From positions 48,204 through 112,203 of the forward strand of contig JAAVCH010000031.1 of the NCBI GenBank assembly GCA_014802425.1: 64,000 nt of DNA, given 5' to 3'. This DNA is from Bacteroides sp. Its GTDB lineage: Bacteria > Bacteroidota > Bacteroidia > Bacteroidales > Muribaculaceae. The notes beneath the pieces were generated by a model. That model ran no database searches, was not told where the DNA came from, and saw only the letters and a list, made by a program, of their open reading frames with translations. Both the position numbers and the translations under genes were made by a program. Position 1 is the stretch's first letter. Each line of letters begins with the position of its first letter. Positions 35,648 to 39,839 of this stretch are shown one piece after another.

Positions 35648-36583
35648 TCACGAGAGTTCGAGCATCCGCTCGATGGGGCGCAGGGCCTTGGCGGCGAGTT
35701 CCGGCTCCACGATTATTTCAGGTGATTCCTCGCGCAGGCAGCGGGCCACTTTTTCGAGCGTCGACATCTTCATGTAGTCGCATTCATTGCACTGGCACTC
35801 GGCATCCTCCGCCGGGGCCGGGAGGAATGTCTTGCCGGGGCATTCGCGGCGCATCTCGAAGAGGATGCCGCTCTCGGTGACCACGATGTACTCCCGGGCG
35901 TCGTCGGTGCGGGCGAAGTCGAGCAGGGCGGCTGTGGAGCCTACCTTGTCGGCCACCATCTGGAGCGGACGCCGGCACTCGGGATGCACGAGTATCTTGG
36001 CGCCGGGATGCGCCTTCTTCATGTCGAGTATGGCCTGGATGGAGAATCGCTCGTGGACATGGCATGCGCCGTCCCAGAGGAGCATCCGCCGTCCTGTGAC
36101 GGAGTTTATGTATTCCCCGAGGTTATGGTCGGGGCCGAAGATGATCTTCTCGTCCTGCGGAAGCGACTCGATTATCTTGCGGGCGTTGCCGGAGGTGACC
36201 ACTATGTCGGTGTGCGCCTTTACGGCGGCCGATGTATTGACGTAGCTTACCACGGTATGGTCCGGATGCTCCGCCACGAAAGCGGCGAACTCCTTCGGAT
36301 CGCAGCTGTCGGCCAGCGAGCATCCGGCTTCGGCGTCGGGCACGAGCACCTTCTTGCCGGGGCATAGAATCTTGGCGGTCTCTCCCATGAAGTGGACACC
36401 GCACATGACAATGATGTCGGCGTCGGTCTGTGCCGCCTTACGGGCCAGCGCGAGGGAGTCGCCTATGAAGTCGGCGATTTCCTGGATTTCGTCGCGCTGA
36501 TAATAGTGGGCCATGATGAGCGCATTCTTCTCGCGCTTGAGCCGGAGGATTTCCTCCTTAAGGTTTTCCTGGGTCATATTCAT
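35648..36583 (-). CDS. nadA: Quinolinate synthase
   Basis: A 311-aa enzyme condensing iminoaspartate with dihydroxyacetone phosphate to quinolinate for NAD synthesis. Three Cys ligands of its 4Fe-4S cluster are placed as in the family: VMCGVHF (Cys61), ILVHPECRRP is nearby, and further cysteines lie in DAECQCNECDYMK near the C-terminus. MAHYYQRDEIQEIADFIGDS, SYVNTSAAVKAHTD and FGPDHNLGEY line the active site. nadB and nadC are not in this window. A TAACTTTG box at 36886-36893 would give an unusually long leader of about 300 nt. Confidence 0.95.
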   Translation of the reverse strand: MNMTQENLKEEILRLKREKNALIMAHYYQRDEIQEIADFIGDSLALARKAAQTDADIIVMCGVHFMGETAKILCPGKKVLVPDAEAGCSLADSCDPKEFAAFVAEHPDHTVVSYVNTSAAVKAHTDIVVTSGNARKIIESLPQDEKIIFGPDHNLGEYINSVTGRRMLLWDGACHVHERFSIQAILDMKKAHPGAKILVHPECRRPLQMVADKVGSTAALLDFARTDDAREYIVVTESGILFEMRRECPGKTFLPAPAEDAECQCNECDYMKMSTLEKVARCLREESPEIIVEPELAAKALRPIERMLELS

Positions 36584-36739
36584 CGTTCGTGATGGAGAGG
36601 TGGATTCATCGGATGGGTCAGGAGAGCGGCCGCCGCCGGCGAAAGGTGCCGGCCGTCTCCCGGCCTTTATTTATTATTATTGGTGATGATTTTTAAAAAT
36701 GAAAAAATTCAAATCAATAATAACAACAACAATAAAAGC
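36584..36739. other. Gene-free AT-rich segment upstream of nadA
   Basis: It begins with a GC-rich imperfect hairpin (36621-36660, GGAGAGCGGCCG against CGGCCGTCTCC) and then turns into a nearly pure A/T tract with TTATTATTATT and AATAATAACAACAACAATAA. No coding frame is supported. It abuts the 9-mer cluster and could be a duplex-unwinding element if that cluster is an origin (inference). Confidence 0.5.
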
Positions 36740-37134
36740 TGTCAATAACTGACAATAACTTTTGGCCTAAAAATTTGCATATTTGGTTATTAACGTCAGC
36801 TGTCGGGCTGTTGACAGGTTATTGACAACCGCCTATGCTCATTATCACGTGGATACGCACGTTATTGACAGGCGTGTCGGGATGGCAAAGTTACTAAAAA
36901 ATCCTCAAATCCGGGACTGTGGCCTGTCAAAAAACGGCCTATAACCGGTCAAACCGGCTGTCAAGAACATGCCCGGTTATAGACAGGGACCCGTGAACCG
37001 GGCCGGATGTAAAAAAATCCGGTTTTCCAAATCTTGCTGAAAATGAGTTATCGACCTGTTGTTGACATGGTTATAGACGGGATATTGACAGGTTTCAGGC
37101 CACTTTTCGACAAGTTATTGACAAGTTATTGACA
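36740..37134. repeat. Iteron-like cluster of TTATTGACA 9-mers
   Basis: About 15 sites in 395 bp. Exact TTATTGACA: plus strand 36819-36827, 36862-36870, 37115-37123, 37126-37134; minus strand 36740-36748. One mismatch: minus 36750-36758, 36925-36933, 36959-36967; plus 36977-36985, 37059-37067, 37082-37090. Two mismatches: 36808-36816, 37048-37056, 37071-37079, 37104-37112. Most exact copies are preceded by G and followed by GG or A. Neighbouring copies are 10-12 bp apart (36740/36750, 37048/37059/37071, 37104/37115/37126), i.e. on one helical face. The 9-mer matches the DnaA box TTATCCACA at 7 of 9 bases. Confidence 0.75.
36886..36893 (-). promoter_or_regulatory. Candidate -7 box of the nadA operon
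   Basis: Minus-strand TAACTTTG followed by CC, inside the 9-mer cluster. It would give a leader of about 296 nt carrying several of the repeats. No TTTG at the right -33 distance. Confidence 0.35.
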
Positions 37135-37286
37135 GGGTTCCCGGTGGTTTTTTCCCTTTTTATGCCTGACGCGGGAGCCCTCGGAGACGGGAATCGACAG
37201 TCAGGGATGGCCGAAGGCGGGAGGATGAAGGGGAGGCTTTGAGGAGGGGATGGAGGGGCTTGGCGCGGACCGATGGAGGGAAAATA

Positions 37287-37319
37287 AAAAGCCGCGTCCC
37301 GGGGGGGACACGGCTTTTA
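37287..37319 (-). terminator. Terminator of the 2-oxoacid oxidoreductase operon
   Basis: AAAAGCCGTGTCCC and GGGACGCGGCTTTT pair with one mismatch around a C-rich loop; minus-strand TTTTTATTTT follows. It lies 20 bp past the gamma-subunit stop. Confidence 0.8.
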
Positions 37320-37338
37320 TTGCAAGGGTGCGGAGTGA

Positions 37339-37881
37339 TTACTTCTTCAGGAGAGCGCGGCCTTTTTCGATGGCCTGCTCATTGAGGGGGATGAGCTTGT
37401 GGTGACGCTCGGGGAGGGATTTCTTGAGGCCCTTGATCACATTCTCCATGGGAAGCTTATAGCGCATGGCTTCGAGCAGGGCGCCCATCACCACCATGTT
37501 GTAGGCCTTGGAATTGCCGATCTCGAGAGTGGCGTCCATGGCGTCGATGGGGTAGATGGTGATGTCTTCGCGGGTGGGGTGGTTGTGGATGCCGTTGGTG
37601 TCGTAGATGAGGATACCGCCGGGCTTCACCTTCGGGGCGAATTTATCGAGGCTCTGCTGGTTGAGGGCGATGACGTTGTCATAGCTGTCGAGCACGGGGG
37701 AGGAGATCTTCTCGTCGGAGAGGATCACGGTGACGTTGGCTGTGCCGCCGCGCTGTTCGGGACCGTAGGAGGGCATCCATGTAACCTCCTTGTCGTCCAT
37801 AAGTCCGGAGTAAGCGAGGATCTTGCCCATAGAGAGGACACCTTGACCGCCGAATCCGGCAATGATGATTTCTTCTTTCAT
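37339..37881 (-). CDS. 2-oxoacid:ferredoxin oxidoreductase, gamma subunit
   Basis: A 180-aa subunit of the pyruvate/2-ketoacid:ferredoxin oxidoreductase family. It starts with IIIAGFGGQGVLSMGKILA, has PSYGPEQRGGTANVTVILS and the NMVVMGALLEA helix, all typical of VorC/KorC/PorG. It completes a four-subunit enzyme with the three genes upstream in transcription order (ferredoxin, alpha, beta). The complex oxidatively decarboxylates a 2-oxoacid to an acyl-CoA and reduces ferredoxin, or runs in reverse under anaerobic conditions. Confidence 0.92.
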   Translation of the reverse strand: MKEEIIIAGFGGQGVLSMGKILAYSGLMDDKEVTWMPSYGPEQRGGTANVTVILSDEKISSPVLDSYDNVIALNQQSLDKFAPKVKPGGILIYDTNGIHNHPTREDITIYPIDAMDATLEIGNSKAYNMVVMGALLEAMRYKLPMENVIKGLKKSLPERHHKLIPLNEQAIEKGRALLKK

Positions 37882-37971
37882 GATCTTATGAGGTAATTGA
37901 GCGGCTTCCGGGGGATGACGGGGCCTTTTTCCGGGCCGGCCGCCGTTTCCGGGGGCCGCAAGAGGTTATTT

Positions 37972-38733
37972 TCAGATGTTCTTGAGGTCGCCGAGGGGAT
38001 ATTTCGGGAACATGTTCTCGGCCATCCATTCGTTGGCCTTTTCGGGGCTCATCTTCCAGCCGGAGTTGCAGGTGGACACTACCTCCACCACCGAGGTGCC
38101 GCGCTTTGCGATGGCGTTCTCGAAGGCCTTCTTAAGGGCGGCCTTTGTCTTGCGCACGTTGCCGGGGGTGTGTACGGACTGGCGTGTCACGTAGCAGGTA
38201 CCGTCGAGGATGGCCATGAGGTTGGTGATTTCCAGCGGGTGTCCGTTGAGGTCGACGCGGCGTCCGTAGGGAGTGGTGGCAGTCTTCTGGCCCACGAGGG
38301 TGGTGGGGGCCATCTGGCCGCCTGTCATGCCGTAGATGGCGTTGTTGACGAAGATCATGACGATGTTCTCGCCACGGTTGGCGGCGTGGATCGACTCTGC
38401 GGTGCCGATGGCCGACATGTCGCCGTCGCCCTGGTAGGTGAAGAGCACGTTCTCGGGCCAGAGGCGGGAAGCGGCTGTGGCCACTGCCGGTGCGCGTCCG
38501 TGGGCGGCTTCGATCCAGTCGACGTCGATGTAGTTGTATGCGAATACGGCGCATCCTACGGGCGATACGCCTACGGTGCGGTCAGTGATGCCGAGTTCGG
38601 CGATGACCTCGGCGAGGATCTTGTGGATCACGCCGTGGCTGCAGCCGGGGCAGTAGTGCATGTGTACCTGGTCGAGGAGTTCGGGTGCGGCGTACACCTT
38701 ATTCTCGGGGCGGATGATATCTTGCATTTCCAT
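37972..38733 (-). CDS. 2-oxoacid:ferredoxin oxidoreductase, TPP-binding beta subunit
   Basis: A 253-aa subunit holding thiamine pyrophosphate. HYCPGCSHGVIHKILAE at the N-terminus and the TPP/Mg motif GDGDMSAIG through NNAIYGMTGGQ are intact; VSTCNSGWKMSP near the C-terminus is typical of the VorA/KorB group. It has no cluster-binding C-terminal extension, as the separate ferredoxin subunit supplies the clusters. It is separated from the alpha subunit by 23 bp. The substrate (branched-chain 2-oxoacid, 2-oxoglutarate or other) cannot be settled here. Confidence 0.93.
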   Translation of the reverse strand: MEMQDIIRPENKVYAAPELLDQVHMHYCPGCSHGVIHKILAEVIAELGITDRTVGVSPVGCAVFAYNYIDVDWIEAAHGRAPAVATAASRLWPENVLFTYQGDGDMSAIGTAESIHAANRGENIVMIFVNNAIYGMTGGQMAPTTLVGQKTATTPYGRRVDLNGHPLEITNLMAILDGTCYVTRQSVHTPGNVRKTKAALKKAFENAIAKRGTSVVEVVSTCNSGWKMSPEKANEWMAENMFPKYPLGDLKNI

Positions 38734-38756
38734 TGTGTCAGATTTAGGGCTCTAAA

Positions 38757-39839
38757 TTATTTGATGAGTTTCTCCTCGAGTGCCACTACGACTTCGTCCG
38801 GGCTGGGGATGATGCCGCCGAGGCGGCCGAAATGCTCCACGGGGAGTGAGTCGTGCACTGCGAGGCGCACGTCCTCGATCATCTGGCCGGCGTTGAGCTC
38901 GACGCAGAGGATACCCTTCTTGCCTTCTGCGGCGCGGGCGATGGCGTCGGTCGGGAAGGGCCAGAGGGTGATGGGGCGCACGATGCCGACCTTGATTCCC
39001 TTTTCTGCGGCCATTTCCTTGGCCTTTGTGCAGATACGGGCTATCGAGCCGAAGGCCACGATGAGGTAGTCGGCTCCTTCGACGTCGATTTCCTCCCAGC
39101 GGGTCTCGTTCTTCTCGATTTCGCGGTAGCGGGCCTGGAGCTCGTGGTTGATGACCTCCATGCGTGCCGATTCAAGTTCGAGCGAGGTGATGACGTTGCG
39201 CTTGCGGCCGTCCTTGCGGCCGTCGGCAGCCCAGGGGCACTGGCGGCGGATTTCCTCGTCGGTGCGGCGCGGACGCTGCTCGGGGAGCACCACCTTCTCC
39301 ATCATCTGGCCCACGATGCCGTCGGCCAGGATCATGGCGGGGTTGGTGTATTTGAACGCCAGGTCGAAGCCGAGGCCTACGAAGTCCACCATTTCCTGCA
39401 CCGTGGCGGGAGCGAGCACGATCAGGTGGTAGTCGCCGTGGCCGCCTCCCTTGCAGGCCTGGAAGTAGTCGGCCTGGGAGGGCTGGATGGTGCCGAGGCC
39501 CGGGCCTCCGCGCATCACGTTGAGGATGAGCGCGGGCAGCGATGCTGCCGCGATGTAGGAGATGCCCTCCTGCTTGAGGCTGACGCCGGGGGAGGACGAC
39601 GATGTCATGACGGCCTTGCCGGTGGCGGCGCCGCCGTAGACCATATTGATTGCAGCCACTTCGGATTCAGCCTGGAGCACAACCATGCCGGTCGTCTCCC
39701 AAGGCATGAGTTCCTCAAGTGTCTCAAGTACTTCGCTCTGGGGGGTGATGGGGTAACCGAAGTATCCGTCGCAGCCGTAGCGGATGGCGGCGTGCGCGAT
39801 GGCCTCGTTACCCTTCATGAGTCTTACCTCTTCTTTCAT
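38757..39839 (-). CDS. vorB: 2-oxoacid:ferredoxin oxidoreductase, alpha subunit (VorB type)
   Basis: A 360-aa subunit with pyrimidine-binding and transketolase-C-like domains. KGNEAIAHAAIRYGCDGYFGYPITPQ at the N-terminus, QAESEVAAINMVYGGAATGK, TSSSSPGVSLKQEGISY and GTIQPSQADYFQACKGGGHGDY are diagnostic. Bacteroidales versions are usually named 3-methyl-2-oxobutanoate:ferredoxin oxidoreductase VorB; the symbol reflects that and not a tested substrate. Gene order is ferredoxin, alpha, beta, gamma. Confidence 0.93.
   Translation of the reverse strand: MKEEVRLMKGNEAIAHAAIRYGCDGYFGYPITPQSEVLETLEELMPWETTGMVVLQAESEVAAINMVYGGAATGKAVMTSSSSPGVSLKQEGISYIAAASLPALILNVMRGGPGLGTIQPSQADYFQACKGGGHGDYHLIVLAPATVQEMVDFVGLGFDLAFKYTNPAMILADGIVGQMMEKVVLPEQRPRRTDEEIRRQCPWAADGRKDGRKRNVITSLELESARMEVINHELQARYREIEKNETRWEEIDVEGADYLIVAFGSIARICTKAKEMAAEKGIKVGIVRPITLWPFPTDAIARAAEGKKGILCVELNAGQMIEDVRLAVHDSLPVEHFGRLGGIIPSPDEVVVALEEKLIK

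Follow-up and report, generated by a model that had tools for sequence, protein, structure and literature searches.

Among the Bacteroidetes, a chromosomal replication origin (oriC) lying far from dnaA is common, and the oriC predicted for Prevotella intermedia OMA14 (DoriC), likewise remote from dnaA, has several DnaA boxes and coincides with a skew transition. In the accessible part of that report, the prediction used E. coli-type boxes with one mismatch, and no nadA neighbour is named (PMC4755523). DnaA contacts the bases of its box through residues 399, 423, 432-435 and 438-439, and the pair 433-434 is highly conserved. In the Epsilonproteobacteria (H. pylori, A. butzleri), a lineage-specific T5 in the box goes together with recognition-helix changes, and C6 (core TTCAC) and D433-H434 are kept, according to the accessible sections of PMC5043019. 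In the basal unwinding system of B. subtilis, a box is followed by triplets with a middle A on one strand (the DnaA-trios, 3'-GAT-5') and then by AT-rich DNA, and the published spacer between box and triplets peaks at 10-13 bp (accessible sections of PMC8287927 and PMC6669920).

The locus described here was compared with these systems. As in the DnaA-dependent oriC of the E. coli and B. subtilis type, 9-bp boxes of the TTATNNACA frame are clustered, an AT-rich tract lies at one end, and the skew minimum of relatives falls at the same place. However, the host boxes read TTATTGACA, in which T5 G6 replace the C5 C6 of the usual DnaA box, and the proposed origin lies by nadA with dnaA on another contig. 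The T5 and the altered recognition helix recall the Epsilonproteobacteria, whereas G6 and Q433 set the host apart from them. Since TTATTGACA has two mismatches to the E. coli-type TTATCCACA, it is not an E. coli-type box at one mismatch or fewer, and the one-mismatch setting used for P. intermedia would miss the host boxes. We consider the array very probably to be the oriC of the host. The sequence supports this in that the array, with its architecture, is conserved by nadA, the skew minimum of three relatives lies at nadA and the recognition helix is altered. The sequence-only reading had named, among other possibilities, an initiator-binding array of a DnaA-box variant, with CC changed to TG, at the chromosomal origin; the base change was correct, and this is the possibility favoured by the nadA-side arrays in relatives, the skew minimum in three single-contig relatives and the changed helix.

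The window (the whole 64-kb stretch of DNA that was analysed) carries the array in the 755-bp gap between nadA and a vor gene. This gap (36584..37338, core 36660-37134) is proposed as oriC from the box counts, the ORF calls and the clusters upstream of nadA in relatives. The codon-usage gene caller passes from nadA (start 36583) directly to the vor gene ending at 37339, leaving no likely gene between them, and with the ORF list it upheld the earlier description of a gene-free region. In the gap, TTATTGACA occurs 5 times exactly, 11 times with at most one mismatch and 20 times with at most two, which makes the earlier count of about 15 copies in 395 bp a fair one. Dinucleotide shuffles of the gap (1000, 1000 and 300 for the three classes) gave means of 0.007, 0.19 and 2.6 and maxima of 1, 3 and 8, respectively. 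The gap thus holds an intergenic DnaA-box cluster above chance, with the TTATNNACA frame and a lineage-specific centre; TTATCCACA itself was looked for in the gap and not found. Across the window, 11 of the 19 TTATTGACA sites with at most one mismatch fall inside the gap (window shuffles: mean 5.1, largest 11). The array is nearly unique within the host genome. Of the 14 exact GTTATTGACA sites in the 2.79-Mb assembly, 5 lie in the gap, 5 in a second, nearly identical copy of this region (contig C1) and 4 elsewhere, and so other intergenic regions do not carry the motif at equal density. The second copy (L023, L024) matches window positions 23125-45084 at about 99.5-99.8% identity (99.8% over 16.3 kb, 99.5% over 5.5 kb) and is probably a strain variant within the same bin, whose contamination is estimated at 5.45%, not a second origin. 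It carries a 2.9-kb insert (C1:5535-8416) missing from the window, with ORFs of 441 and 184 aa, the former showing a CxxxCxxC motif and appearing radical-SAM-like by eye.

The landmark of the region is nadA, encoding quinolinate synthase (35648..36583, minus strand; Pfam NadA, E 4.6e-123), whose start is turned toward the AT-rich side of the array. The AT-rich tract (36660..36739), noticed earlier near 36660-36760 and confirmed by a G+C of 0.20 at 36680-36739, is AT-rich in the aligned relatives too. It adjoins the boxes and is a candidate DNA-unwinding element, with unwinding predicted from composition. Under the 3'-NAN-5' rule taken from the accessible part of PMC8287927, nine consecutive middle-A triplets resembling DnaA-trios were recognized by eye at 36712..36738 (plus strand). 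Away from the box at 36740 they read 3'-GAA AAT AAC AAC AAC AAT AAT AAC TAA-5', and their AA pairs are conserved columns every 3 bp in a 23-row alignment. Nine triplets exceed the at least three within 16 bp of a box by which DnaA-trios are recognized, a rule that is permissive in A-rich DNA. The order of box, one-strand triplets and AT-rich DNA is that of B. subtilis; however, the host triplets are mostly 3'-AAC/AAT-5' and depart from the box-proximal consensus 3'-GAT-5', and 1 bp separates the first of them from the box (compared with the accessible sections of PMC8287927 and PMC6669920).

The anchor TTATTGACA box beside the triplets (36740..36748, minus strand) keeps its position in relatives, and a one-mismatch box follows it (36750-36758, minus strand). 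Two further TTATTGACA boxes on the plus strand lie +79 and +122 from the anchor (36819..36827 and 36862..36870; +79/+80 and +122/+123 in relatives), the first preceded by a two-mismatch box (36808-36816). The mismatch scan also placed one-mismatch boxes at 36925 (minus), 36959 (minus) and 36977 (plus), within 36925..36985. At the far end, seven boxes stand in a row on the plus strand (37048..37134), with starts at 37048, 37059, 37071, 37082, 37104, 37115 and 37126. The steps of 11, 12, 11, 22, 11 and 11 bp bear out the phasing of 10-12 bp noticed earlier; the last two boxes are exact, and this terminal 11-bp pair is kept in many relatives. Between the boxes, the GCAAAGTTA element (36885..36893, minus strand) forms almost invariant columns in the 23-row alignment. 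The Bacteroides-type -7 promoter element has the consensus TAnnTTTG, and TAACTTTGC, the complement of GCAAAGTTA, fits it and would read across the AT-rich tract to nadA. Matches to sigma-70 promoters, mostly TTGACA within boxes, were not used. A terminator-like hairpin with 14 pairs and a T-rich tail follows the vor operon (37287..37318, minus strand).

At such an origin, DnaA would bind the phased TTATTGACA boxes via its C-terminal helix-turn-helix, and a DnaA oligomer would grow toward the anchor box at 36740 and from there engage the A-rich strand across the triplets (36712-36738). The AT-rich tract would then open and allow helicase loading. This sequence of steps follows the B. subtilis model described in the accessible parts of PMC8287927 and PMC6669920, and for the host we infer DnaA binding, unwinding and initiation.

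The place of the array is kept in most relatives read. At least three TTATNNACA boxes were present in the 700 bp upstream of nadA in 14 of the 17 genomes of the genus, all of which were read, in 12 of the 15 read among 78 from other genera of the family, and in 15 of the 27 read among 117 from outside the family. The box density upstream of nadA was 5.63, 5.93 and 3.49 per kb in these three groups, compared to 0.05, 0.18 and 0.41 per kb elsewhere in the same loci. No TTATNNACA box was found in these 700 bp in 1/17 (G095), 2/15 and 6/27 genomes, respectively. Moreover, among the Bacteroidales loci read, 13 besides the window have at least five TTATNNACA boxes in 700 bp, and 12 of them adjoin nadA; L120 does not. 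The architecture is also conserved. Offsets of 0, 79-80, 122-123, 374-376 and 385-387 from the anchor are common to the host (G000), G007 and G066 and partly shared by G043, G151 and G094, and G049 shows offsets of 80, 123, 364 and 375. The 23-row alignment, which consists of chosen upstream regions from 22 distinct genomes (L102 is the same as G084), keeps the AA pairs of the triplets, both the anchor box and the box next to it, GCAAAGTTA, and the pair of boxes at the far end. Exceptions to this conservation of place and architecture are G095, G290 and others without boxes. G109, G055 and L096 have a different layout of 11-20 boxes in two blocks. The arrays of G109 (L118:9088-9715) and G055 (L119:3628-4226) contain 19 and 20 boxes beside nadA, in opposed blocks in which TTATTGACA is mixed with TTATCTACA.

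GC skew was sampled in three single-contig assemblies, one of the same family (G158) and two of two other families (G290 and G275), with 20 stretches of 20 kb taken from each. Right of nadA, the skew was positive in 8/9, 9/10 and 7/10 stretches of G158, G290 and G275; left of nadA, it was positive in 1/10, 0/9 and 0/9. All three thus show at nadA the minus-to-plus switch of an origin. At fourfold-degenerate sites, both gene strands shift to G right of nadA in the three relatives, and because both strands shift, the switch is not merely a matter of gene orientation. These fourfold-site figures rest on the codon-usage gene caller; a fourfold skew from a naive choice of the longest ORF was discarded, as antisense ORFs had been taken as genes in GC-rich DNA. 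Within the stretch carrying nadA, the cumulative skew curve is lowest at nadA itself in G290, where the minimum is flat, and in G275, and roughly 3 kb away from it in G158. The opposite switch was seen about half a chromosome away, at 3.06-3.24 Mb in G158 and 0.36-0.54 Mb in G290, and was ragged in G275. The dnaA gene is about 0.6 Mb from nadA in G158, and at the record start, far from nadA, in G290 and G275. In G290, the skew minimum is at nadA, yet no TTATNNACA box was found within 700 bp upstream of nadA. The host contig itself gives weak skew evidence for an origin. The raw cumulative minimum of the window, at 34-36 kb, is confounded with gene orientation, and at fourfold sites the minus-strand genes of the contig shift from 0.350 to 0.501 while the plus-strand genes stay (-0.438 to -0.422). 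The host skew cannot be followed round the chromosome because the assembly consists of 48 contigs.

The host has one DnaA, encoded on contig C10 apart from the nadA contig, with all three Pfam DnaA domains. Its recognition helix is RQHGTVLYG; that of E. coli is RDHTTVLHA. D433 is retained in G290, G275 and G194, outside the family, and in every family DnaA read residue 433 is Q, R, K, S, T or N. Within the genus, at least two TTATTGACA boxes were present in 11/12 genomes with Q or R at 433 and in 1/12 with another residue (Fisher p 1e-4, ignoring shared ancestry). For 37 family genomes the figures were 11/12 and 3/25 (p 5e-6, again ignoring shared ancestry). This comparison leaves out G064, G027 and G033, whose loci as read included no nadA-side array; G055, G094 and G307, in which a DnaA was looked for and not found; G112 and G188, which have no boxes; and G148 and G095, whose nadA locus and DnaA, respectively, were not among the sequences read. 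G110 and G066 were entered with 5 TTATTGACA boxes although the scan shows 6, which leaves the test of at least two unaffected. The DnaA tree of 29 rows unites the RQHGTV sequences in a single clade (100/100) and places apart the two R433 rows, G109 and G043, both with mixed TG/CT boxes.

A rule set beforehand, that TG boxes need Q or R at 433, was then applied to four new testable genomes. Three fitted (G151, G069 and G064, all R) and one, G097 with N, did not; grouping N with Q and R would be an after-the-fact grouping. Of six controls, five fitted (G044, G047, G132, G129 and G120), the sixth, G130, having N and one TG box. Among further genomes, G126 (S, 3 TG boxes) and G178 (T, 2 TG boxes) broke the rule and G167 and G111 fitted. 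G093, with Q433 and CT boxes, was an exception known beforehand, so that the exceptions to the association are G093, G097, G126 and G178. L093 (the same as G097), L105 (G069) and L102 (the known G084) added no new test, and no DnaA was found for L106 (G094) or L096. Beside its normal DnaA, G033 encodes a second, divergent DnaA C-terminal-domain ORF (L234, G033:C117:1267-1467) in a 175-aa frame with a GRSHSSV helix.

Box centres drift from group to group: CA, AA and TA lead outside the family, CA and CT in the other genera of the family, and CT and TG in the genus. TTATTGACA is seemingly a lineage-specific DnaA-box variant that changed together with DnaA, and we infer that the helix changes caused the changed box. 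A tentative scenario, somewhat less likely than not, is that DnaA and its boxes were re-coded together in the family: the loss of D433 would have freed the two central bases, and arrays of 10-20 boxes would then have been converted from CA or CT to TG more than once while their spacing stayed nearly base-exact. The outcome would be pairs of initiator and origin that are naturally orthogonal to one another. The same box may also have arisen independently elsewhere, and we regard the following as a lead. A Thermotogaceae MAG (L101:3971-4250, on contig JARRBB010000008.1), by its label from an unrelated phylum, has 12 boxes (11 TTATTGACA, 1 TTATCGACA) in about 280 bp beside an AT-rich TAGTAGTATATA tract. 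Its array is not near nadA, and its DnaA helix, aligned by eye, is RGRTTV, without D433. T. maritima itself uses AAACCTACCACC, according to the accessible part of PMC6669920.

Small clusters of the same box also exist away from nadA, and DnaA therefore probably binds non-origin places as well. In the host, four boxes (three TTATTGACA, one TTATCGACA) lie between rplQ and a gene of the C_GCAxxG_C_C family (G000:C23:109736-109789; L109:9736-9789), possibly a private DnaA-regulated site. In G027, a gap away from nadA contains nine boxes, mostly 21 bp apart (L120:9203-9391, contig C17), which resembles either a site for titrating or controlling DnaA or a further cluster of origin type. Such clusters lend some plausibility to the view that the nadA array is itself a regulatory or titration locus, datA-like or serving DnaA control of nadA, near the origin but distinct from it. 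Nevertheless, this view leaves unexplained why an AT tract with triplets lies by the anchor box and why three relatives have their skew minimum at nadA. The rplQ cluster, moreover, was present in 1/22 genomes in which the stretch after rplQ was read, and is not conserved. We consider this view very improbable.

Still less probable is that the boxes are sites for a transcription regulator of nadA or of the vor operon. The array abuts the nadA start, and the conserved promoter-like element points to nadA, as such a role would have it. However, some relatives have up to 20 boxes, spread across both strands of some 600 bp, which is more than an ordinary operator would hold, and the sites fit the TTATNNACA frame that DnaA boxes have and change along with DnaA. 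Nor is the vor side a conserved neighbour. The vor-type 2-oxoacid:ferredoxin oxidoreductase genes (37339..39839, minus strand; Pfam POR, TPP_enzyme_C and POR_N) were dropped as a landmark when, of 30 vorC loci, 2 besides the C1 copy of the window showed nadA in the flank, L052 with 6 exact boxes and L048 with none. The far flank of the array varies among relatives, with vor, pyrH-frr or other genes. The proposed synteny of nadA, gap and vor therefore stood for the array beside nadA, kept in most relatives read, and failed for the vor neighbour.

The sequence-only reading had counted convergent genes against an origin and in favour of a terminus. The polarity is real: between 20 and 52 kb, the genes called before 34 kb are mostly on the plus strand and those called from 34.1 kb on are all on the minus strand, converging at the array. 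The argument drawn from it fails, as nadA sits at the minus-to-plus switch in three relatives, which is the sign of an origin, and the opposite switch is about half a chromosome off in G158 and G290; in G158, G290 and G275, genes lie on both strands either side of nadA. A terminus or segregation locus (dif/matS/parS-like) is thus highly implausible. Equally so is the suggested remnant of an integrated plasmid origin with iterons of a Rep protein, which the direct repeats with helical spacing resemble but which found no support: the eight flanking genes tested belong to ordinary chromosomal housekeeping families with no Rep among them, no match to the region was found in 72,556 plasmid records, and the array is conserved at nadA across the family.

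For the reading as chromosomal origin, oriC is a known kind of element, and what we would call new is the box with T5 G6, the way it co-varies with residue 433, and nadA as a landmark. In the open-licence literature, no link of nadA with oriC in Bacteroidales was found; the DoriC tables, outside this search, may record nadA adjacency. The same literature gave only unrelated titles for Muribaculaceae with oriC and, among the matches listed for the letters TTATTGACA, no title on origins.

If the array is oriC, nadA offers a simple landmark of the origin across at least part of the Bacteroidales, where TTATTGACA boxes would be missed by a TTATCCACA search with one mismatch. In records rotated to begin at dnaA, such as G275 and G290, the first base is a long way from the apparent origin, and growth estimates from peak-to-trough ratios would have to take this into account. 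Furthermore, the matched change of DnaA helix and box may serve as a ready test of how initiator specificity evolves.
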